NCBI GenBank assembly: GCA_022821645.1
Contig: JAJEDE010000027.1
Coordinates: 1 to 64,000, forward strand
Origin: Chloroflexota bacterium
GTDB taxonomy: Bacteria; Chloroflexota; UBA11872
Reading direction: 5' to 3'
Length of the DNA stretch: 64,000 nt
Positions 5,499 through 56,928 of the stretch are shown here, one piece after another; the stretch's first letter is position 1; each line of letters begins with the position of its first letter. The position numbers were made by a program, and so were the translations under genes. The notes below the pieces were generated by a model, which had not been told where the DNA came from, did no database searches, and saw only the letters and a program-made list of their open reading frames with translations.

Positions 5499-6602
5499 CT
5501 AGGGGACGGTTAGGCGTTGGGGGGTGAAGGGGTGGAGGGGGTAGGCGGGGGGCTGGTTGGTGAGGAGGCGGGTGATGAGTTGGGCGGTGTGCCAGCTCAT
5601 GGTGATGCCGTGGGTGTGGTGGCCGGTGGCGAGGTAACAGCCGCTTTCAGGGTCGCGGCCGATGAGGGGGAGCCCGTCGGTGGGTTCGGGGCGGAAGCCG
5701 GTCCAGATTGAGGCCAGGGGGCAGTCGGCCAGGGCGGGCAGGGTGGCGAGGGCGCGGTTGAGCATTTCCTGGACGGCGCCGGCGCGGAGGCGTCGATCGA
5801 AGCCGACGCGTTCCTTGGTGGCGCCAAAGACCACGCGTCCGTGGGACCGCTGGGCGAGGCTGCCGCCGGGGAGGTGGAGGATATGGCGGAGGCGGAGGTG
5901 GGGGGCATCAAAGGCGAGCATGTGGCCCCTGGAGGGCACGATGGGGGCGCCGGGGAGAAGGTGGGGCAGCCAGGCGCCGGTGGCGAGGACGATCCGGTCG
6001 GCACTGAGCGTGCCGCGGACGGTTTGGACGGTGGGGTTGGGGCCGGCCGCGACGGCGGTGACGTCGGTTCCCTGGTGAACATCCACGCCGGCGGCGAGCA
6101 GGGCGCGGTGGACGATGGGGGACCAGCGCTGGGTATCGACCTGGCCGTCGGGGTAGAGGGCGGCGCCGGTGAGGTGGGGCGGGAGGAGGGGTTCGCGGCG
6201 GCGGGCTTGGTCGGGTTCGAGGAAGTCGGCCTGGAGTCCGGCGTTGCGTTGCCAGGCGACGCGGTTCTTGAGGAGCTGGCGCTGCTGGTGGGTGAGGGCG
6301 AGGCCGATGGTGGGGCCCTTGGAGAACCCGATGTCGAGGCCGGTGAGTTCCTGGAGAAGCTGGGCGAATTCGGGGAAGGCGTCGCGGCCGGCGGCGCGCA
6401 GGCGGAAGAGGGGGGTGTCGTAGTCGGCGTCGTACTGGGCGCAGATGAGGCCGCCGGCGGCGGATGAGGCTTCGCCGCAGATGCGTCCGCGCTCGAGGAG
6501 GGCGACGGAGAGGCCGGCGCGGCGGGCGGCGAGGGCGATGGCGCAGCCGATGATGCCGCCGCCGACGACGGCGACGTCGGCGTTCTTCAAGTCAGGGCTC
6601 AC
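5499..6602 (-). CDS. thiO: FAD-dependent glycine/D-amino acid oxidase (ThiO-like)
   Basis: The N-terminus has the FAD dinucleotide-binding motif GGGIIG (about residues 15-20) with the following Glu at the end of the second strand (LLERG). The C-terminal part has WTGFRPEPTDGLPLIG and GHHTHGI, typical of the DAO/glycine oxidase family. At 367 residues the length is normal. ThiO oxidises glycine to iminoacetate for the thiazole part of thiamine. No other thiamine genes are adjacent, so another D-amino acid or sarcosine substrate is possible. The start at GTG 6602 has no clear ribosome binding site. The gene stands alone between two repeat islands. Confidence 0.75.
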   Translation of the reverse strand: MSPDLKNADVAVVGGGIIGCAIALAARRAGLSVALLERGRICGEASSAAGGLICAQYDADYDTPLFRLRAAGRDAFPEFAQLLQELTGLDIGFSKGPTIGLALTHQQRQLLKNRVAWQRNAGLQADFLEPDQARRREPLLPPHLTGAALYPDGQVDTQRWSPIVHRALLAAGVDVHQGTDVTAVAAGPNPTVQTVRGTLSADRIVLATGAWLPHLLPGAPIVPSRGHMLAFDAPHLRLRHILHLPGGSLAQRSHGRVVFGATKERVGFDRRLRAGAVQEMLNRALATLPALADCPLASIWTGFRPEPTDGLPLIGRDPESGCYLATGHHTHGITMSWHTAQLITRLLTNQPPAYPLHPFTPQRLTVP

Positions 6603-41063: not shown

Positions 41064-43766
41064 GTGAGTCGTTCAGTCCTGGTCAGCCTGCGGCTGTCCC
41101 TGCTTGTTGTGGCGGCGGCGCTCATTGCGCTGCCCGTCGGTGCTCGCGCCGATGATCCGCCGCCGACCTCGCAGTTGGTCGCCACCATCCTTCGCACCAC
41201 CTTCTCCCAGCCCGATCCCCACCTCGCCCACAACATCCCCGATCTCCGCCTCAGCGTCGGCGACCAGGTCGTCACCTGCGGTTTTCTGACCCACTACCAG
41301 GCCACCGGCGACCTCATCCGCTGGGGCTTCCCCACCTCCGAGGTGCTTGAAGAACGGCAGGGTGTCCTTACCCAGTACTACCAGCGCGGCGTCGTGGACT
41401 GTCATCAGCGCGCCGGCGCCTGGCGGATGGAACGCCGTCTCGCCTGGGACTACCTGGGCGGCGGGGTCGGCGGCTCACCCGACCTGGGCGTCGAACCCGA
41501 CCTGCTCAGTGACCAGGAGGGTCTTGCTTCCGGCCCCTGGGGGCACCGCGTCTCCAACTTCGCCATCGACGGCACGCCCATCGGTTTCCTGGACTTCTTT
41601 GAAGCTCTCGGCGGCGTCCAGGCCTTCGGCTTTCCCAAGTCCGACGCCCGCTCCGATCTCGATCCCCGCGCCAGCCTTCAGATTCCTGGCGCCAACCCCA
41701 ACTTCATCCGCCAGTACTTCCAGGCCGCCGTCCTCGAATTCCATCCCGGCACCCCGCAGCCCGTCAAACTCCGCCTGCTCGGCGACGACGTCCGCAACCT
41801 GATCTACCCCGATTACAGCTTCCAGGCCTTTCCCAGCTTCAACCCCGCCGAACCGCTGACCGCCGGCCAGACGTTCCGCCCCCACGGCCTCACCGAGCGC
41901 GCCATCCTGGCCGCCCTCTACCAGGCCACCAACGGGCCGGGCTGGGCGAATAGCGCGAACTGGCTCAGCGACGCCCCGCTCAACGACTGGCACGGCGTCA
42001 CGACCGGACCCGACGGCCGCGTCGTCCAACTCGCGCTGCCCCTGAACCAGCTGCGCGGCGAACTCGCGGTGCCGCTGGAGCGACTGCCCCACCTGGAGCA
42101 CCTCAACCTGTCGGGCAACGAGCTGCAGGGTCCTATCCCCGCCGCGCTCGGGAAACTCGCCAACCTGCGGTCCCTCCAGCTCAGCAACAACCAACTCAGC
42201 GGCCAGCTGCCGGCCAGCCTCAGCAACCTTCACGCCCTCACCTGGCTGGACCTCAGCGCGAACCAGCTCGGCGGTCGAATCCCCGGCAACCTGGGCGGCC
42301 TCCACGCGCTCGCCGTCGTCGATGTCAGTGCCAACCAGTTGGTCGGCAACGTCCCGCCCTCGCTGGCCGCCCTGCCCAACCTGCGTGAGCTTCGCGTCAG
42401 CCGGAACTTCCTCAACGGCTGCCTCGACCCCGCCCTGCGCCGCATCCCCAGCCACGACCTGGGCGAGCTCATCGAGCGCTTCTGCGACCAGGTCCCCGCC
42501 CAGACCAATGCCGCCAGCGACCGCGCCGCGCTCGAAGCCTTCTACTACGCCACCGGCGGCCCCGGTTGGAATAACAGCAACCTGTGGCTCAGCAGCGCCC
42601 CGCTCCAGTCCTGGCACGGCGTCTGGACAAATAGCGACGGCCGCGTAACTGACATCGAGATGAAGAACAACAACCTGCGCGGGGTGCTTCCATCCATGCT
42701 GGGCGACCTCACCTACCTAAAAGGCATAGAAATCCGGGAGAACAAGCTGCGGGGTGTCATCCCGCCGGGACTCGGACGGGCCAAGGAATTGGATTGGCTG
42801 AATCTCTCGGACAACCAGATGGAGGGCACGATTCCCGACAGCCTCCAGGATCTGACCAAGTTCCGAAGGCTGAGCCTGTCGAACAACCAGTTCGAGGGTG
42901 AGATTCCCGCCTGGCTCGGCAGCTTTCCTCGCCTGCGGGACCTCCATCTCGACCGGAATCAGTTTCGGGGCACCATTCCCGCCACGCTCGGCAACATTCC
43001 CGCCCTGGATCACCTTCACCTGCGTGACAATCAACTCGAAGGCCAGATCCCGGCCTCACTTGGCAAGCCACAAGGTATGTCGGGTCTGGTGCTCTCAGGC
43101 AACCGGTTGACTGGGCCGATTCCACCGGAACTCGGTCGGGCGGTCGATCTCTCCGGCCTTCTGCTCCACAACAACCAGCTCAGCGGCGAGATTCCAGCCA
43201 CGCTGGCCGATCTCCCCCTGCTATCCAACCTGAACCTCTCGGGAAACCAGCTGCACGGCGATATCCCGGCATCCTTTAGCAGACTCACGCGGTTGCGGAG
43301 GCTCAATCTCACCAACAATCGCTTGCAGGGCGAGATCCCCGCCTGGCTTGGTAACCCGGTGGAACTCCGAGTCCTGGACCTGTCGCACAATCAGTTCAGC
43401 GGGACCATCCCCGCCAACCTCGGCGCCGCGTCAAAGCTGATGGAACTGCGCCTCGCCGGGAACCGGCTTACCGGCCCAGTCCCCCTGGAACTCGGCCAAC
43501 TGTTCCACCTGACGGACTTGACCCTCGCCTCCAACCAGTTGCAGGGCCCCATCCCGCCCGAGTTGGGCAACCTCACGCAACTCACGCACCTGGCCCTTGC
43601 CGACAACCAGCTGACAGGCGACATCCCGCCGGCCCTCATCCGCCTCCTCAACCTGGACACCGTGTCCCTGGCCGGCAACGCCCTCACCGGCTGCCTCCCC
43701 GTCACCTGGCGCGACATCCGCCAACACGACCTGGCAATCCTGGGATTGCCGTTTTGTGATCAATAG
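41064..43766 (+). CDS. Secreted LRR protein with LGFP-like N-terminal domain (900 aa)
   Basis: GTG 41064 opens a signal peptide (core LSLLVVAAALIALPVGARA). Residues ~30-280 form a domain also found at 53903: HNIPDLRLSVGD, CGFLTHY, RWGFPTSEVLEER, TQYYQRGVVDC, MERRLAWDY, then SNFAIDGTPIGFLDFFEALGG and AFGFPKSDAR. The W/F-G-F-P-x-S motifs recall LGFP repeats of actinobacterial cell-wall proteins. Two capped LRR modules follow (ADWHGV-type and SWHGV caps), each ending in a GCL ... FCDQ two-Cys cap. It lies 120 bases downstream of the giant LRR gene, in the same direction. Confidence 0.85.
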   Translation: MSRSVLVSLRLSLLVVAAALIALPVGARADDPPPTSQLVATILRTTFSQPDPHLAHNIPDLRLSVGDQVVTCGFLTHYQATGDLIRWGFPTSEVLEERQGVLTQYYQRGVVDCHQRAGAWRMERRLAWDYLGGGVGGSPDLGVEPDLLSDQEGLASGPWGHRVSNFAIDGTPIGFLDFFEALGGVQAFGFPKSDARSDLDPRASLQIPGANPNFIRQYFQAAVLEFHPGTPQPVKLRLLGDDVRNLIYPDYSFQAFPSFNPAEPLTAGQTFRPHGLTERAILAALYQATNGPGWANSANWLSDAPLNDWHGVTTGPDGRVVQLALPLNQLRGELAVPLERLPHLEHLNLSGNELQGPIPAALGKLANLRSLQLSNNQLSGQLPASLSNLHALTWLDLSANQLGGRIPGNLGGLHALAVVDVSANQLVGNVPPSLAALPNLRELRVSRNFLNGCLDPALRRIPSHDLGELIERFCDQVPAQTNAASDRAALEAFYYATGGPGWNNSNLWLSSAPLQSWHGVWTNSDGRVTDIEMKNNNLRGVLPSMLGDLTYLKGIEIRENKLRGVIPPGLGRAKELDWLNLSDNQMEGTIPDSLQDLTKFRRLSLSNNQFEGEIPAWLGSFPRLRDLHLDRNQFRGTIPATLGNIPALDHLHLRDNQLEGQIPASLGKPQGMSGLVLSGNRLTGPIPPELGRAVDLSGLLLHNNQLSGEIPATLADLPLLSNLNLSGNQLHGDIPASFSRLTRLRRLNLTNNRLQGEIPAWLGNPVELRVLDLSHNQFSGTIPANLGAASKLMELRLAGNRLTGPVPLELGQLFHLTDLTLASNQLQGPIPPELGNLTQLTHLALADNQLTGDIPPALIRLLNLDTVSLAGNALTGCLPVTWRDIRQHDLAILGLPFCDQ

Positions 43767-46298: not shown

Positions 46299-47384
46299 TC
46301 AGCCCTGGGCGTAGGCCGCCGCCAACACCTCCGCCACCTCCGGACGCGTGAACTCGGCCGGCGGTCGCTGGCCTTCACTCAGCATCCCCCGCAGCCGCGT
46401 GCCGCTCAGGAACACGTGGTTGGCTCCGTCGTGCGGGCAGGTCTTGGCCGAGCCCATCGCGGCGCAGGCCGTGCACCAGAAGGCGTGCTCGAAGAACAGC
46501 GGCGTAATGCCCAGTTCACCGGCGTCGAACTCGTGGAAGATGTGCTGCGCGTCGTGCGGGCCGTAGTAGTCGCCCACCCCCGCGTGGTCGCGTCCCACGA
46601 TGAAGTGCGTGCAGCCGTAGTTGCGCCGCACCAGCGCGTGAAACACGGCCTCGCGCGGACCCGCGTATCGCATCGCCGCCGGCAGCGCCGCCAGTACCAC
46701 CCGGTCGCGCGGGAAGTACCCGTCCAGCAGCACTTCGTAGCAGCGCCAGCGCACATCGGCGGGCACGTCGTCTTCCTTGGTGACGCCCACCAGTGGATGC
46801 ACCAGCAGCCCATCCACCATTTCCAGCGCGGCCTTCTGGATGTACTCGTGCGCGCGGTGAATCGGATTGCGGGTCTGGAACCCCACGACCGTCCGCCACC
46901 CCAGCGCGTCGAACCGCTCGCGCAACTGCAACGGCGTCAGGTGCCGCGGGTCGTCCGCCCGGTCCGGCGATTCCCCGAAGCACCGCACCGGCCCGCCCAG
47001 CAGGACCTCGCCCTGGGCATAGAGTGCCGCCACACCGGGATGCTTCGCATCGGTCGTGCGATACACCGCCTGCGCTTCCGCCACCTTGTCGTAGTGATAT
47101 CGCTGCCGGACCTCCAACTCGCCGCGAGGCCGGCCCGCGCCGTCCAGCAGGTCCAGCCGGTCGCCCTCGCGCACCAGCGCCGCCGTCTCGGCGTCGACCG
47201 CCAGCGTGATCGGCAACGGCCAGGGCTGTCCGTCCGGCAAGTGCATGTCCTTCAGCACCGCCGCGTATTCCGGCTCGGTCATGAACCCGGTCAGCGGGCG
47301 GTAGCCCCCGACTCGGAACAGCTCCAAATCCGCCAGTTGCCGCGGCGAAAGCTCGATCGCCGCGGGCGCTGCCACGGCGCCCAT
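46299..47384 (-). CDS. sat: Sulfate adenylyltransferase (ATP sulfurylase)
   Basis: A 361-residue Sat-type enzyme from ATG 47384, which shares one base with the cysC stop. Catalytic text: FQTRNPIHRAHEY (HxxH and QxRN motifs), GRDHAGVGDYY and FLSGTRLR. It makes APS from sulfate and ATP. Near the C-terminus CTACAAMGSAKTCPH supplies a cluster of cysteines as in zinc-containing dissimilatory-type ATP sulfurylases. It is the Sat rather than the CysDN type. Confidence 0.95.
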   Translation of the reverse strand: MGAVAAPAAIELSPRQLADLELFRVGGYRPLTGFMTEPEYAAVLKDMHLPDGQPWPLPITLAVDAETAALVREGDRLDLLDGAGRPRGELEVRQRYHYDKVAEAQAVYRTTDAKHPGVAALYAQGEVLLGGPVRCFGESPDRADDPRHLTPLQLRERFDALGWRTVVGFQTRNPIHRAHEYIQKAALEMVDGLLVHPLVGVTKEDDVPADVRWRCYEVLLDGYFPRDRVVLAALPAAMRYAGPREAVFHALVRRNYGCTHFIVGRDHAGVGDYYGPHDAQHIFHEFDAGELGITPLFFEHAFWCTACAAMGSAKTCPHDGANHVFLSGTRLRGMLSEGQRPPAEFTRPEVAEVLAAAYAQG

Positions 47385-47986
47385 CAGGCCGCCGCCACGC
47401 AGTCGGTCACCGGCGCCAGGTAGCCCAGGCATTCCAGCCTGGAGATGATCCTGGCCGCGCTCTCCTCGACCGATTCCATGTCCGTCTCCACCACAATCTC
47501 CGGGTTCACCGGTTCTTCATACGGATCGCTGACTCCGGTGAAATTCTCGATCTCACCCGCCAGCGCCTTTGCGTACAGCCCCTTGGGGTCGCGCTCGATC
47601 AATTGGTCGAGCGAACACTTCACGTAGACCTCCACAAACTCGCCGATTTGCTCGCGCGCTTCGCGGCGGCCTTCGGTATAGGGAGAAATCGCCGACACCA
47701 GCATCGTCGCCCCGTGCCGCGTCCCCAGCGCCGCCACCCAGGCAATCCGCCGGATGTTCTCGTCGCGGTCCTCGCGCGTGAACCCCAGCCCCTTGCTCAG
47801 GTGCGTGCGCACCACGTCGCCGTCCAGCGACTCCACGCGGTGGCCGCGGCGTTGCAGTTCCGGCGTCAGCCGATCCGCCAGCGTGGTTTTGCCGGCGCCG
47901 GAAAGCCCCGTCAGCCAGATCGTGACCCCGGCCGGTTCCTGCCGCCCGTAGGCGGCAAACCCATTGCAGTCCATTGACTTGACCAT
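47384..47986 (-). CDS. cysC: Adenylylsulfate kinase
   Basis: A 200-residue APS kinase: P-loop [39 protein letters not shown] with the family Ser, and KGLYAKAL. It phosphorylates APS to PAPS. It lies four bases after cysH and before sat. Having CysC next to a CysH of the iron-sulfur APS-reductase type raises the question of which of APS or PAPS is used for reduction; PAPS may serve sulfation instead. Confidence 0.93.
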
Positions 47987-47989
47987 CTC

Positions 47990-48703
47990 CTAGGTGTTTC
48001 CGTGCAGACCGCACTCGGTCTTTGACAGTCCGCGCCAGCGGCCACTCCGGAGCGACTCACCCGGCAGCGGACGCGACGTGCAGCGCGTGTCGCAGCCCAG
48101 GCTTGGGTAGCCCTCGTCGTGCAGTCGGTTGTACGGCACGTCGTGGTGGCGGATGTAGTCCCAGATCTCGGCTTCGGTCCAGCCGCTCAGCGGCGCGACC
48201 TTCACCAGCCCGAACTTCGCGTTCCACTCGATCACCGGCGTTGCCGCCCGCTGCGCCGACTGGTCGCGGCGCACACCCGTGATCCAGGCGCGCTTGTCGG
48301 CCAGCGCTCGCGCGTTCGGCCCGACCTTGCGGATCCCGCAACAGGTGTCCGGATCACGGTCCCACAGTTCCGGGCCGTACAGCGCGGCCTGGTCCACCAG
48401 CGACAGCTCCGGGTGATACGCCGTGGCCTCGAACCCGTAGCGATCTTCGATGCGCTCGCGGACTTCGTGCGTGGACTGGAAGAGCAGGCCGGTGTCCAGG
48501 TAATAGACCTCGACGTCGTCCAGCAAGTCCAGCCGCGCCAGCATGTCCACCAGCACCATGCCGCTGGGGCCGCCGAAGGAGCACGACAGCGCCACGTCCG
48601 GGGCATAGGCGCGCACGACTTCGCGCAGCACCTCCTCGGCGGGCAGGCCCTGCAGCCGCGGGCCTTCGCGCCGCAGGTCGATTTCGGCAAGTTGCACGTT
48701 CAC
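47990..48703 (-). CDS. cysH: Adenylylsulfate/phosphoadenylylsulfate reductase
   Basis: A 237-residue CysH protein: ALSCSFGGPSGMVL (substrate loop), DTCCGIRKV, ITGVRRDQSAQRA and a C-terminal TECGLHG with the catalytic Cys. CC plus the later Cys pair indicate the 4Fe-4S APS-reductase subgroup. The second pair is GCDTRCT, with three residues between the cysteines where two are usual. GTG 48703 has GGAGG 13 bases upstream, rather far; GTG 48697 is an alternative. A structured leader and a polycysteine ORF precede it. Confidence 0.9.
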   Translation of the reverse strand: MNVQLAEIDLRREGPRLQGLPAEEVLREVVRAYAPDVALSCSFGGPSGMVLVDMLARLDLLDDVEVYYLDTGLLFQSTHEVRERIEDRYGFEATAYHPELSLVDQAALYGPELWDRDPDTCCGIRKVGPNARALADKRAWITGVRRDQSAQRAATPVIEWNAKFGLVKVAPLSGWTEAEIWDYIRHHDVPYNRLHDEGYPSLGCDTRCTSRPLPGESLRSGRWRGLSKTECGLHGNT

Positions 48704-48879
48704 GATTGAGAGAAAACCTCCGGTGGCACAGGGGCAGAAAACGCCCCTTGCTCGATTTCAGATGCTCGACGCCGTTCTAGGGCGTAGTCAGTTGAGACCG
48801 ATCACGCGGCCGGGGCGCAGACGCCCGGCCGGCGTCGAGAAATGCCTGGCATGGCCAGGACTTTGCGGGCGTGAGAGGC
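48704..48879 (-). promoter_or_regulatory. Structured leader between the polycysteine ORF and cysH
   Basis: Downstream of the polycysteine ORF stop, the minus-strand RNA can form three structures. One is a small hairpin (48845-48859, CCTGGC/GCCAGG, three-base loop). The second is a perfect 10-bp stem (48830-48839 with 48765-48774) enclosing a GC hairpin (48809-48829). The third is a hairpin AGGGGC/GCCCCT (48730-48748) nine bases before the cysH ribosome binding site GGAGG (48717-48721). None has a T-run, so control would more likely act on translation or mRNA decay than by intrinsic termination. Confidence 0.55.
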
Positions 48880-49041
48880 CTAGACCACCACGCCCCGTAT
48901 ACAGGCGCAGGTGCAGTCGCAACAACAACACGTGCAGCCGCTGGGGTGCTCGCGTGAAGCGGTAGCCGCCGACGCAAGCAGCCGCTGGCCGCTCGGCGTC
49001 GGCGATGGATCGGACGGTTTGTCTGGGGTCAGACCGCGCAT
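48880..49041 (-). CDS. Polycysteine short ORF, candidate cysteine-responsive attenuator
   Basis: ATG 49041 lies 13 bases inside the end of the sulfite reductase gene, with GAGGG just before it. The 53-residue product has an unremarkable N-terminal half and then, at residues 36-47, the sequence CTCCCCDCTCAC: eight Cys in twelve codons (TGC and TGT). It ends IRGVVV. Polycysteine short ORFs upstream of sulfur-assimilation genes are established in mycobacteria as cysteine-responsive attenuators, where ribosomes slow on the Cys codons when cysteine is scarce. The position before cysH, in a cysteine-biosynthesis operon, and the downstream RNA structure fit that role. A structural metal-binding peptide is the alternative. 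Confidence 0.75.
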   Translation of the reverse strand: MRGLTPDKPSDPSPTPSGQRLLASAATASREHPSGCTCCCCDCTCACIRGVVV

Positions 49042-50810
49042 TCGCCCTCGCCGCGTTCCAGCACGTACAGCCGGTCGCGGTCCCAGTCCACGAAGTGGTC
49101 CGGTTCGTCGTCGTATTCGGGCGGCAGCGCCAGGTCTTTCAGCAGTCCGTCAAAGTAGAGCCGGTCGTGCCGGTCCACGTACTCGTTGAACGACTCGTCG
49201 TCCGCCAGGCGGCTTTCCTCGTAGTCCAGGATCAGGCGCTCCACCACCGTCGGCGCGCGCTTGGCCGGCACTCGCGTGCGCAGCAGCAGGCCCAGCCGCA
49301 TCGGCGACCCGTAGCGGCGGTTGCCGCCGATGAAGGTGTGGTAGGCCGGAACCTGGCGTCCGCCGGTCTTGATGGCCGCGCCGTGGAAGCCGATGTTGCC
49401 CACGTGATGCATGCCGCAGGAGTTGGGGCAGCCGCTCATGTTGATCAGGATTTGCCGCGTCAGCGGATCCTGGATGTGCATTTCCTCGACCTTGGCCTGG
49501 ATGGCCTTGTTCAGGCCCATCGACGAGGTGATGCCCAGCTTGCAGCTGTCCGTGCCGGGGCACGACACCACGTCGTTGATCTCGTAGGCGCCCGGATTGC
49601 CGAGACCCAGGGCCCGCAATTCCTTCCAGACCGGGTAGACGCTGTTGTCGGGAATCCAGCGCAGCACGATGTTCTGCCAGTGGGTGGTGCGGGCACGGCT
49701 GGCGCCGTAGTCACGCAGGATCTGCGCCAGGCCGCGGAACTGTTCGGGACTCAGGTCGCCCTGGTTCACCTTGACTTCCATGGTCGAGTACCCGGCCTGC
49801 ACCTGCGGCGCCACGTTGGTTGAGCAGAAGCGCTCGAACAGGTCGGCGTGTTCCTCGGCGATCACCGGCGCCTCGGCCGGCATCGCAGGCGCGTCGGCTT
49901 GCTCGTTGTCGATGAAGACCAGATCGTCCAGGTCGTAGTCGCGCTCGGCCCAGGCGCCGGTCAGTTCGGCCTCCACCATCTCGCGGAACTTCTCGATTCC
50001 GACCCGGTGGACGAGGAACTTGATGCGGGCCTTGGCGCGGTTGCGGCGCAGTTCGTCGGACCGGTTGAAGATCCGCAGCACGGCCTCGGAGACCCGCAGG
50101 TAGTCGCTCAGCGGCACGAAGTCGTACAACTCGAACGCGTGCTTGGGCATGATCGAGAGCCCGCCGCCGGTCAGGATCCGGAACCCGCGTTCTTCCTTGC
50201 CGTCCACCATCTTGATGGTCGAGAAGAACGCCAGGTCGTGAATCTCGCCGATCGTGCGGTCGGTGTCCGATCCGCTGAACGAGACCTTGAACTTCCGCGG
50301 CAGCAGCTGGGTCAACGGGTTACGCACGAAGTAGCGCACGAAGGCCCCGGCGTACGGGGTCGCGTCGAACGTCTCGTCGTCCGCCACGCCCGCCCAGGGG
50401 TCGCCGGTCACGTTGCGGACGGTGTTGCCGCAGGCTTCCCGCGTCGACAGCCCAGCGCGACCCAGCACCCGCAGCGCATCCCAGGCCAGCGGTAGCGGGA
50501 TGTGGTGCAACTGGATGTTCTCGCGCGTGGTGATGTGGCCCTTCTTCAGCGGGGCAAAGCGCTCGGCCACCTCGGCAAAGGCGTCCAGTTGGTCGGCCGT
50601 GACGCCGCCCATGGGCAGCTTCACTCGCAGCATCTGCACGTTGGGCTGGCGCTGGCCGTAGACGCCCTGCTTCAGCCGGTAGCCGATGAACTTCTCTTCG
50701 ACGCGCTGACCGGCCAGGTAGGCCCGGGCCTCCGTGGTGAAGTCCTCGAATTCCTCATCGAGGATCTCGATCACGTGGCCTGCCGTGTCTCTTCGTTCAG
50801 TTACTGCCAT
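49029..50810 (-). CDS. sir: Ferredoxin-dependent sulfite (nitrite/sulfite) reductase
   Basis: A 593-residue siroheme/4Fe-4S enzyme. Two ferredoxin-like half domains are each followed by a catalytic domain. The cluster/siroheme cysteines are in CPGTDSC (CX5C) and SGCPNSCGMHH (CX3C). It reduces sulfite to sulfide with six electrons from ferredoxin; nitrite reductase is the alternative for this family. Being in one operon with cysH, cysC, sat and siroheme-synthesis genes argues for sulfite. ATG 50810 has GGAGG six bases upstream, and a -10 match TAGAAT lies further upstream on the minus strand (near 50890). The last codons contain the start of the polycysteine ORF. Confidence 0.9.
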   Translation of the reverse strand: MAVTERRDTAGHVIEILDEEFEDFTTEARAYLAGQRVEEKFIGYRLKQGVYGQRQPNVQMLRVKLPMGGVTADQLDAFAEVAERFAPLKKGHITTRENIQLHHIPLPLAWDALRVLGRAGLSTREACGNTVRNVTGDPWAGVADDETFDATPYAGAFVRYFVRNPLTQLLPRKFKVSFSGSDTDRTIGEIHDLAFFSTIKMVDGKEERGFRILTGGGLSIMPKHAFELYDFVPLSDYLRVSEAVLRIFNRSDELRRNRAKARIKFLVHRVGIEKFREMVEAELTGAWAERDYDLDDLVFIDNEQADAPAMPAEAPVIAEEHADLFERFCSTNVAPQVQAGYSTMEVKVNQGDLSPEQFRGLAQILRDYGASRARTTHWQNIVLRWIPDNSVYPVWKELRALGLGNPGAYEINDVVSCPGTDSCKLGITSSMGLNKAIQAKVEEMHIQDPLTRQILINMSGCPNSCGMHHVGNIGFHGAAIKTGGRQVPAYHTFIGGNRRYGSPMRLGLLLRTRVPAKRAPTVVERLILDYEESRLADDESFNEYVDRHDRLYFDGLLKDLALPPEYDDEPDHFVDWDRDRLYVLERGEGECAV

Positions 50811-53902: not shown

Positions 53903-55711
53903 CTAGACCTCCGCCGGCGCTTCCTCCTCGTCAGCGGCAGGCTCGCAGAGCGGCAGCCCCAGTTCGTCTATGTCGTTACGCGTGCCCTCCGCCAACGTCG
54001 CCGGCACGCATCCGGTGAAGTCGTTCCCCGCGAGGAACAGCCTCCGTAGATTGACGAGACCTTCGAGCGCGGCCGGAATCTCACCAGTTAGCTGGTTCTG
54101 CTCGAGGCCCAGCACCGTCAGGCTGCTGAGGTTGCCCAACTCGGCGGGGATCGTCCCGCTTAGCTGGTTATGCCTGAGCCAGAGTTCGTCCAGATCGACG
54201 AGGTTGCCCAACTCGGCCGGAATCGGGCCGCTCAGGCGGTTGTGATCGAGGTCCAGTTGCGTCAGGCCGGTGAGATTGCCCAGTTCCGCAGGAATCGGGC
54301 CGCTCAACTGGTTGGACCAGAGCCCGATCCAGACGACATTGGGGAGATTGCCCAACTCGGCGGGGATCGGGCCGCTGAGCTGGTTCAATGTGAAGTCCAC
54401 GTGCGTCAGGGTGGTGAGATTGCCCAGTTCGGGCGGAATCTCACCGGTCAGCTCGTTAATGCCGAGCGCCACCCACTCCAGGCTCTCCATGTCACCCAAT
54501 TCGGCCGGGATGGACCCGCTCAGCTGATTGGCCCAGAGGGAGAGACGGGTCACCTTGTCCAGGTTGCCGATCGTCGCGGGAATCTCGCCCGTCAGCTGGT
54601 TCCCAAAGAGGTCCAGATTTGTCAGACCGGTAAGCAGGCCGATTTCCGACGGAATCTGGCCGCTCAACTGGTTCTGCGAGAGGTCCAGCTCGACAACGCG
54701 GCCGGCCCCGATGGTGACGCCGGTCCACTGGCGGAGCGGCGCGGCGCTGACCCAGTTGTGGTTGAGATTCCAGTTGGGGCCGTCCAGGGCGTCGTAGAGC
54801 GCAACCAGCGCGGCGCGGTCGGCGTAGTACTGCGCAAGCAGCTCGCCGATTCCCGAGATTGCCTCGGGGGCGAACTCCTGACCGTCCTCCAGCGGTTCCG
54901 CGGGACGGAAGCTCTCGAACGCCTGATGGATATCAAACGGGTAGTGCGTGTCGCGAGCGACATCGCCCAGGAAGCGCAGATGCACCACCTCCGGGCTGTC
55001 CGGCCGGTGTTCGAGGACCGCCGACTGGAAATACTGGCGGATCACGCCCGGAGCGGCGCTCTCCAGTTTGAAGATGGCGCCGGGCGCATCGTCCGAGCGA
55101 GCCTCGGACTTGGGGTGGCCGAAGGCCTGCAGACCGCCCAGGGCATTGAAGAAGTCCAGGAAGCCGATGGGCGTGCCGTCGACGGCGACGTTGGACACGC
55201 GGTGATTCCACGGCCCCAGCGGCAGGCCGGGCTGCTCGCTCAGCAGGTCCGGCTCGCCGCCCAGACCGCCGATGTCGTCCCAGACCAGCCGGCGCTCCAT
55301 GTGCCAGTCGCCGTCGCGTTCCTGGCAGTCCACGATGCCGCGTTGGTAGTACTGGGTCAGGCCGCCGGTGCGCTCGGAGAGGACCTCGGAGGTGGCGTAG
55401 CCCCAGCGATCAACATCGCCGGTCTCCCGGTAGAACGTCAGGAAGCCGCAGGCTACCTGGGCGTCGCCGACCGACAGCATCAGGTCGGGAATGTTGTGGC
55501 CCAGGATTTCGGTGGGCTGTGTGAAGGCGGAACTCTCGACCACGGCCGAGAGACCACCGGTCGCCATTTCGTCCGCGTCGTGCTGATCCGCCGCGACGGG
55601 CGCCGCGAATGCGACGAGGGCCAGCAGCGTCGTGACCGCAACCGCCGCGATTCGGCGTGGATGTCCACTGAGCCCTCTAACCCGGAGACGCCGAGAAACC
55701 AGACGCTTCAT
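53903..55711 (-). CDS. Secreted LRR protein with LGFP-like N-terminal domain (602 aa)
   Basis: From ATG 55711 (GTG 55720 also possible) a basic N-terminus and hydrophobic core form a signal peptide ending near APVAADQ. Residues ~35-290 match the N-terminal domain of the protein at 41064 (HNIPDLMLSVGD, CGFLTFY, RWGYATSEVLSER, TQYYQRGIVDC, MERRLVWDD, GTPIGFLDFFNALGG). One cap (WNLNHNWVSAAP ... WTGV) and about eleven 24-residue LRRs follow, closing with TGCVPATL ... LPLC and an acidic tail (ADEEEAPAEV). Probably a secreted recognition or adhesion protein, paralogous to the one at 41064. Confidence 0.85.
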   Translation of the reverse strand: MKRLVSRRLRVRGLSGHPRRIAAVAVTTLLALVAFAAPVAADQHDADEMATGGLSAVVESSAFTQPTEILGHNIPDLMLSVGDAQVACGFLTFYRETGDVDRWGYATSEVLSERTGGLTQYYQRGIVDCQERDGDWHMERRLVWDDIGGLGGEPDLLSEQPGLPLGPWNHRVSNVAVDGTPIGFLDFFNALGGLQAFGHPKSEARSDDAPGAIFKLESAAPGVIRQYFQSAVLEHRPDSPEVVHLRFLGDVARDTHYPFDIHQAFESFRPAEPLEDGQEFAPEAISGIGELLAQYYADRAALVALYDALDGPNWNLNHNWVSAAPLRQWTGVTIGAGRVVELDLSQNQLSGQIPSEIGLLTGLTNLDLFGNQLTGEIPATIGNLDKVTRLSLWANQLSGSIPAELGDMESLEWVALGINELTGEIPPELGNLTTLTHVDFTLNQLSGPIPAELGNLPNVVWIGLWSNQLSGPIPAELGNLTGLTQLDLDHNRLSGPIPAELGNLVDLDELWLRHNQLSGTIPAELGNLSSLTVLGLEQNQLTGEIPAALEGLVNLRRLFLAGNDFTGCVPATLAEGTRNDIDELGLPLCEPAADEEEAPAEV

Positions 55712-55836
55712 CACTTTCACGAGACCTTCCGTAATGGCGCAACCGCCCCGAATCCTGATGTTGAGTTTAGGGCCCGCGTTTGCCCAGCGCGAGACATTGC
55801 CCCCTGCCGCTAAGGCGTTGCTCGCGCGCCGGCCAA

Positions 55837-56928
55837 TCACGCGGTGCGCGCGGGGCCGTATGCCTCCATGGTCTGGAGGGCGATGCGGTCCCAGCCCAGC
55901 TCGTCGGCGACGGTGTGGGCCGCGCGGGTTCGCTCGGCAAGGTTCCAGTCCTGTGAGTCCCGCATGGCGGCGCGCAGGTCCGGGATATTGGCCGGTGGGA
56001 CCAGGACGCCGGCGCCGGTGTCGTCGAGCAGCTCGGGGATGCAGCCCACGCGGGTGGCGATGATGGGGCAGCCGAAGCCCAGGGCGGTGATGATGGCGCC
56101 GCTGGTGAGGGCGTCGCGGTAGGGAAACACGGCCACATCGCCGGCGTGGAAGTAGACCTGCAACTTGTCGATGGGGACTTTGCCCTCGTGCATGAGGACG
56201 CGCGGGTCGCCCATGGGCTCGTTGCCCACGACGCCGTCGTAGAACTGGTGGCGCTGCCCGGCCACGACGAGGCGCAGGTGGTCGCCTTCCAGGCCCTTGA
56301 AGGCTTCCAGCATGTCGTCGTGGCCCTTGTAGCCGCGGATGTTGCCGAAGGAGGTGTAGACGAAGGCGTCGTCGGGGATTCCGAGTTCGCGGCGAGCGTC
56401 TTCACGGGTCATGTCCGCGGGATATGCCTGGCGGAAGTCGCCGTGCGGAATCACAAAGAGGTTGCGGCGGCGGATGAAGCGGCGGGTGTAGGTGCGGGCG
56501 GCGTACTCGCAGTGGCAGATGATGGAGTTGGCCAGCAGGGCCATGACGTAGCGGCCGACCACGTCGACGCCCCAGTGGGGGCGCTCATGGGGCAGCATGT
56601 TGTGGAGCGTCCAGACGACGCGGTAGCCGAGCAGCCGTGCGAGCAGCAGGGAAGCGACAAACGCGCCCATCCGCAGCCAGGCTTTCGTGGCCGTGTCCGT
56701 ATTGGTAATGCCCTGCAGCCAGTGCAGATGTATCCCGTGGACGCGACCGCGATTGCGCCATATCCAGCCCAGGTTCACGCTGGGCGTATCCGGGCTTGGA
56801 TTCAGGCTGATGAGTTCGAAGCTATAGCCGTGGCGCTGCATGGCCTCGACCAGCGATCCGCCGTAGGGATTGCCGAGCATGTTCCGGTAGTTGAACAGGC
56901 TCGGGTCCCAGCTGAACGCGACGCGCAT
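55837..56928 (-). CDS. Glycosyltransferase, GT4-like
   Basis: A 363-residue GT-B fold protein. The C-terminal domain has FVYTSFGNIRGYKGHDDMLEAF, VDKLQ-type IDKLQVYFHAGDVAVFPYRDALTSGAIITALGFGCPIIAT, including the donor-binding Glu/Ser region. N-terminal text IHLHWLQGIT and WTLHNMLPHE suits GT4-type enzymes. It probably transfers a sugar to a cell-envelope glycan; donor and acceptor are not predictable. It is 54 bases downstream of the isomerase gene on the same strand. Confidence 0.8.
   Translation of the reverse strand: MRVAFSWDPSLFNYRNMLGNPYGGSLVEAMQRHGYSFELISLNPSPDTPSVNLGWIWRNRGRVHGIHLHWLQGITNTDTATKAWLRMGAFVASLLLARLLGYRVVWTLHNMLPHERPHWGVDVVGRYVMALLANSIICHCEYAARTYTRRFIRRRNLFVIPHGDFRQAYPADMTREDARRELGIPDDAFVYTSFGNIRGYKGHDDMLEAFKGLEGDHLRLVVAGQRHQFYDGVVGNEPMGDPRVLMHEGKVPIDKLQVYFHAGDVAVFPYRDALTSGAIITALGFGCPIIATRVGCIPELLDDTGAGVLVPPANIPDLRAAMRDSQDWNLAERTRAAHTVADELGWDRIALQTMEAYGPARTA

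Follow-up and report, generated by a model that had tools for sequence, protein, structure and literature searches.

The 64,000-nucleotide stretch of contig JAJEDE010000027.1 from a Chloroflexota bacterium (assembly GCA_022821645.1), here called the window, carries on its reverse strand a sulfur gene cluster in which sir is followed by cysH, cysC and sat. Between sir and cysH lies a short upstream open reading frame (uORF) of 53 codons (48880-49041, reverse strand), which starts with an ATG at 49041-49039, overlaps the last codons and the stop codon of sir and ends with UAG. Codons 36-47 (48936-48901) encode CTCCCCDCTCAC, in which eight of 12 residues are cysteine. A previous sequence-only reading had described this uORF with its own GAGGG site in the end of sir and its Cys run ahead of cysH-cysC-sat-hemC-cobA-hemD (the last three gene names are those of that reading), and had interpreted it as a candidate cysteine-responsive attenuator. 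Coordinates and family matches agree with the description, and the uORF with its Cys run is confirmed. All features are listed in Table 1.

The Cys density of the run is exceptional. Other stop-free 12-codon stretches not overlapping it contained at most five Cys in all six frames of the window, and 30 simulated 64-kb sequences (second-order Markov model) also gave a maximum of five, reached in five of the 30. The pattern TGYTGYTGYTGYNNNTGY had a single exact match in the organism's own genome (3.55 Mb). When one mismatch was allowed, 25 further matches were obtained, compared with 69 for a reversed-pattern control, and the loci of these 25 matches did not exceed six Cys in 12 codons. Based on the Cys counts in window, simulations, genome and loci, a chance origin of the run was rejected. 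A Leu-rich alternative frame (48788-48931) was discarded as well, its GTG start being mostly GTC in the other genome group (alignment, by eye).

At the search cut-off, sir was present in 31 of 61 genomes, comprising the own genome and its relatives. The intergenic DNA between sir and cysH was matched in 11 of the 13 genomes of the genus, own genome included, and the uORF frame and start codon are kept in all 11 (referred to as the clade). Their runs contain eight Cys in four genomes, seven in six and six in one. After sir, the two genus members G002 and G003 and six genomes of the sister genus contain no 12-codon stretch with at least four Cys; in G013 and G014, in which no cysH was found nearby, 1.1 kb after sir was scanned. 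In the 19 family genomes, a covariance model of the leader detected exactly one copy in each of these 11 and no copy in the remaining eight. The model R1 gave weak matches alone in 14 relatives' loci (E of at least 0.21).

From a genome collection, 80 of 226 sir loci (728,506 bases) were kept. Stretches with at least seven Cys in 12 codons occurred in seven of the 80, every one representing the element described here. Locus L049 also carries this element, with six Cys in 12 codons, and L057 is a further member whose locus is cut before the region; L067 has two unrelated six-Cys stretches. At the cysS loci, the stretches listed (up to four per locus) had no more than five Cys in 12 codons in 13 of 14 loci. 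A six-Cys stretch lies approx. 1.4 kb upstream of cysS in locus L137 of G003.

Conservation of the leader and of the end of sir

Alignment of the 11 sequences, with G006 omitted from column 301 on owing to a deletion, revealed an invariant run of 53 columns that begins in the last Cys codons and ends beyond the uORF stop. None of 5000 permutations gave a run of equal length. The block is unchanged at all three codon positions, loops included. Of the four-fold degenerate sites of sir, 186 of 283 vary and 97 are invariant (10 genomes; G008, whose sir is split between contigs, was omitted from the sir site counts). Depending on the tree, neutral evolution is expected to leave 2.6 or 20.9 of the 53 columns invariant; the highest counts in 500 simulations per tree were 8 and 34.

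Across 10 genomes, the five Cys codons upstream of the block (36 and 38-41) are still Cys codons in 43 of 50 cases. The neutral expectation is 25.7, from which 43 was reached in 13 of 3000 simulations, or 18.5, from which it was never reached in 3000. Codons 5-34 showed a ratio of nonsynonymous to synonymous polymorphism (pN/pS) of 0.97 (10 genomes, G006 omitted), so the first half of the peptide is free to drift; a search of six frames in 10 genomes found no coding constraint on this half. As far as these substitution patterns can tell, selection sees the nucleotides more than the peptide. No indels were found in the uORF (11 genomes) and few in the sir upstream region (nine genomes, by eye), a contrast that is suggestive only. 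Immediately ahead of the Cys run, approx. 29 nt (48937-48965; columns 88-116 of alignment A2) diverge strongly between two genome groups, in which length and frame are the same.

Constraint is also apparent in the gene in which the uORF starts. In 10 genomes of the clade, the final 36 nt of sir, stop codon included, make up its longest stretch without any change. The terminal 11 codons, again with the stop, are all unchanged, compared with a mean of 6.2 changes per 11-codon window, and only two of 584 windows were as low. In the six less diverged genomes of the sister genus, three of these 11 codons have changed (mean 4.0; 242 of 585 windows as low), which is ordinary there. The conserved tail contains a GAGGG resembling a Shine-Dalgarno (SD) sequence (49049-49045), which precedes the uORF ATG. 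Both sit on the sir codons for GEGEC, and GEGECAV is invariant in nine aligned Sir proteins. Selection on the Sir protein maintains this motif anyway, so that finding a start-like site there is in part a forced outcome and says little by itself. The silent-site invariance of the tail, by contrast, is not forced by the protein and says more. At the two codons concerned, GAGTGC was the commonest form in the 80 loci (59), and the ATG-making GAATGC was found in 14. The earlier view that the uORF is coupled to its upstream gene rather than leaderless is in line with a GAGGG and an ATG that both lie inside sir under silent-site constraint.

Predicted RNA structures

Folding of the strand 48690-48900 gave a z-score of -3.5. 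Two of the predicted hairpins, P0 and P1, share one strand and are mutually exclusive; they occupy columns 140-186, within the invariant block. The Cys-codon strand of P0 begins with the final base of codon Cys43, ends with the initial base of Cys47 and pairs with GGGCGUGGUG. Among 1000 shuffled sequences, four reached the energy of P1 and none the energies of both hairpins. In the GC-rich 64 kb, both energies in the same register were found at eight of 31970 sampled positions, representing six separate places (every fourth base on both strands; the element itself is absent from the sampled hits). The invariance of the sequence in 11 genomes means that covariation cannot confirm P0 and P1.

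In the downstream RNA, 15 of 118 paired columns are variable, compared with 37 of 90 unpaired columns, the structure being derived from the same 10 sequences (G006 omitted). The difference was also obtained with each of the 10 single-sequence structures (p 0.016 to 0.0001), which rely on the same alignment and are not independent. Nine of 14 variable pairs can still pair via G-U.

Proposed attenuation mechanism

The element is probably a cis-acting, translation-dependent cysteine sensor, in other words a cysteine-codon attenuator inside the operon. The position of the Cys run directly before sulfur genes, the invariant start, the invariant block spanning P0 and P1 and the constrained RNA downstream fit such a function. 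The spacer lacks peptide constraint, as leader peptides do. Ribosomes finishing sir would start at the overlapping ATG, traverse the freely drifting spacer of approx. 30 codons and reach the Cys run, the last codons of which would form one strand of P0. As P0 and P1 are predicted to share a strand, the position of the ribosome should decide which of them forms. Given the size of a ribosome footprint, stalling at approx. codons 41-43 for want of Cys-tRNA would bury the P0 strand under the ribosome, so that P1 could fold. A ribosome that continues to the UAG would occupy the loop of P1 and open that hairpin. By the logic of amino acid attenuation, low cysteine would raise cysH-cysC-sat expression, through an output step from hairpins to expression that we infer.

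Several observations weigh against this interpretation. The GAGGG-CGA-ATG spacing is short, which qualifies the proposed start site. Six of the 14 GAATGC loci lie outside the clade, the other eight being clade members, so the uORF ATG itself is not special to the clade. The element is confined to one genus and has no other copy in its own genome. Of 2000 neutral simulations, 272 likewise left the spacer without stops, so that an open spacer is weak evidence for translation. Moreover, Ser replaces Cys at codons 36, 38 and 40 in two, five and one of the 11 genomes, respectively, and a synonymous change (T/C) occurs at one Cys position only, codon 38. As the changes are mostly to Ser, the constraint seems looser than strict selection for a Cys at every position. 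P0 taken alone is modestly unusual (38 of 1000 shuffles reach its energy), the stability of the whole block is ordinary (422 of 1000), and no double compensatory base change was found in 70 pairs. Measured against the sequence-only reading, which had looked to related genomes for a conserved Cys-rich frame with synonymous changes, the frame was kept and one such change was present, while three of the eight positions carry Ser in some genomes; in G002, G003 and the six sister-genus genomes the run is absent. The attenuator proposal itself is partly supported: it gained a selected Cys-codon ORF overlapping sir and a conserved alternative fold, predicted to include Cys codons, and lost ground through these Ser positions and through the lack of an intrinsic terminator.

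The remaining points against it concern the output step. No intrinsic terminator with a U-tract was found in 48600-49200, which is unremarkable as shuffled sequences average 0.4. Pairing of the cysH SD sequence and start codon was predicted for eight states (free RNA and seven ribosome edges) in 10 genomes. In each of the eight, mean SD pairing lay within 0.76-0.86, which gives no prediction of a simple SD switch. These predictions do not support such a model, nor a leader fold that opens the cysH ribosome binding site. Start-codon pairing ranged from 0.50 (ribosome edge at column 187) to 0.96 (column 175) in no clear order. Rho is encoded in all 13 genomes of the genus, in 12 over the cut-off; the gene of G009 is split between contigs. 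A Rho site should show an excess of C over G, and this excess is weak here. With no terminator, no predicted SD switch and Rho in every genome, we think that the likeliest output is Rho-type polarity acting on the 176 nt that remain untranslated behind the UAG, favored although unproven. Control of mRNA stability or of cysH translation are alternatives.

If the attenuator operates as proposed, the supply of cysteinyl-tRNA may determine the balance between sulfite reductase and sulfate reduction, and polycysteine attenuation may have arisen independently and recently outside Actinobacteria. A Chloroflexota case between genes of one cluster, with conserved alternative hairpins and near relatives lacking the element, would show how such a sensor arises. 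The compact element would allow testing of the mechanism and would bear on the control of sulfur assimilation in uncultured bacteria.

Alternative explanations

Invariance at all codon positions and in loops, a structure reaching well past the ORF and tolerance of Cys-to-Ser changes would equally be properties of a conserved structured intergenic RNA, which might act in processing, in stability or through an unknown ligand and in which the Cys codons would be an unread by-product of nucleotide constraint. We consider this unlikely. It leaves unexplained why eight in-frame Cys codons stand next to cysH, why Cys codons are retained outside the hairpins and why silent sites are constrained at the ORF start. 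Furthermore, no Rfam family matched at its gathering score; one CRISPR repeat model reached 15.6 bits compared with a gathering score of 39 (E 2).

Less likely still is a DNA element serving as promoter or operator for cysH, for instance TTGTTG-N18-TATACG in the invariant block (picked by eye). A promoter scan passed no promoter-like site, and such an element would account neither for the Cys frame nor for the constrained sir tail. Its location before cysH and its invariance would fit, and six relatives without the run, in which cysH follows sir, do have a palindrome of the TTGA-N9-TCAA type before cysH. The exact palindrome is present in G003 and four sister-genus genomes and in none of 500 shuffles of one such region; G002 has one mismatch and N10. 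G013 and G014, with no cysH found near sir, were not counted. None of the 11 clade members has the exact palindrome. Their best matches have one or two mismatches, and shuffles of the region from the window reached one mismatch or fewer in 40 of 500 cases. This suggests, without proof, that the clade may have lost a DNA-level control of cysH. A tentative scenario, possible rather than probable, is that the cysteine attenuator arose within an existing Chloroflexota operon, in a lineage without the operator-like palindrome found before cysH in relatives.

In locus terms, TTGAT-AAACCC-GATCAA or a similar sequence precedes cysH in L013 and L015-L018, and the same palindromes occur in L051 and L053-L055. 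By eye, the sister-genus palindrome overlaps a possible -35 box and is a candidate operator.

Clusters of cysteines bind metals, and a nascent Cys-rich peptide could sense metal or redox state in the manner of copper-responsive uORFs. CruR of Bordetella (PMC9426467) is such a precedent: this regulatory uORF carries a CXXC motif, and its output is Rho-dependent. We regard this explanation as improbable here: the peptide undergoes Cys-to-Ser and also Asp-to-His changes, its first half is without peptide constraint, it has no Pfam match, and the genes downstream are sulfur genes. A small functional protein is very improbable; the frame is open in 11 of 11 genomes, with the pN/pS of codons 5-34 near one and the conserved part conserved at silent sites as well.

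Comparison with known systems

In classical attenuators of the trp type, the regulatory codons lie on a hairpin strand that excludes the next hairpin. The sir-cysH element resembles them in its codons for the amino acid of the pathway and in its predicted exclusive hairpins, one of which contains the regulatory codons. Unlike them, it has no U-tract terminator and is located between genes.

Mycobacterial leaderless polycysteine short ORFs (Canestrari et al. 2020) act as attenuators, as described in PMC9031893, PMC9094748 and PMC13236596. The likeness includes a short ORF containing a Cys-codon run (six to eight Cys in the 11 genomes), a position before sulfur or cysteine genes (here cysH, cysC and sat) and, by our proposal, control via ribosome speed at the Cys codons. 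In contrast to the mycobacterial ORFs, the Chloroflexota uORF has its start and an SD-like GAGGG within the preceding gene and lies in a gene cluster. Because of this start it was not placed in the leaderless group. It also differs in its phylum and in the conserved alternative hairpin pair predicted here.

Candidate Cys leader peptides of Mycobacterium, Propionibacterium acnes and Bifidobacterium longum (PMC1262725) likewise have Cys runs close to their stop codons, precede cys or cbs genes and have no terminator, and Rho was suggested there. Compared with these, the hairpins of our element are conserved, likewise without a U-tract. The uORFC-8-2 motif before cysS in Rhodobacterales combines a uORF with Cys codons and a terminator. 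It and the present element are both Cys-codon uORFs inside a structured RNA with presumed ribosome-mediated attenuation (PMC8632094 for uORFC-8-2). uORFC-8-2 has two tandem Cys codons, an apparent intrinsic terminator and cysS as target, whereas the element described here has six to eight Cys, no terminator and another target. In the papers considered here, polycysteine leaders are assigned to mycobacteria and other Actinobacteria and Cys-codon uORFs to Rhodobacterales. Among the matches listed from the open-licence PMC literature, no report of a polycysteine attenuator from Chloroflexota was present.

Gene neighborhood

Table 1. Features of the sir-cysH region and neighboring genes (window coordinates).
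Feature	Position	Strand	Basis or remark
sir, nitrite/sulfite reductase family, upstream gene	49029..50810	-	PF01077, PF03460
sir tail, 36 nt with stop, containing SD-like GAGGG (49045-49049) and uORF ATG	49029..49064	-	Silent-site invariance
Polycysteine uORF	48880..49041	-	ATG overlapping sir, UAG stop; frame open in 11/11 genomes with the region
Cys run CTCCCCDCTCAC, codons 36-47	48901..48936	-	Cys density and retention counts
53-nt invariant block	48865..48917	-	Columns 136-188, 11 genomes
Hairpin P0 (predicted), Cys-codon segment CACCUGCGCCU paired with GGGCGUGGUG	48886..48913	-	10 bp, -15.4 kcal/mol
Hairpin P1 (predicted), GGGCGUG...CACGCCC	48867..48895	-	-18.3 kcal/mol; uORF stop codon in loop
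Hairpin P2 (predicted), CCUGGY...GCCAGG	48842..48861	-	Predicted fold
Branched P3 (predicted), outer stem CUCGACGCCG/CGGCGUCGAG and two inner hairpins	48765..48839	-	Predicted fold
Hairpin P4 (predicted), just before cysH ribosome binding site	48726..48751	-	Predicted fold
GGAGG, cysH ribosome binding site	48717..48721	-	13 nt before GTG
cysH, phosphoadenylyl/adenylyl-sulfate reductase, first gene after leader	47990..48703	-	Family matches
cysC, adenylyl-sulfate kinase	47384..47986	-	Family matches
sat, sulfate adenylyltransferase	46299..47432	-	Family matches; true start probably internal

sir belongs to a sulfur cluster, yet among NCBIfam models it is matched best by NirA-like and ferredoxin-nitrite reductase ones; all 10 matches were under the cut-off. 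The GGAGG of cysH is present in 10 of 11 genomes and deleted in G006. In that genome (L049, approx. 6050-6065), a deletion between short repeats GAAATCGA takes out the ribosome binding site and the start codon of cysH and is either real or an assembly error. In L017 of the sister genus, an extra gene is inserted between sir and cysH, which by eye we take to resemble an NYN-domain nuclease. Finally, two similar-looking large proteins (41064-43766, forward strand, and 53903-55840, reverse strand) flank the sulfur cluster on opposite strands, and both look leucine-rich-repeat-like by eye.
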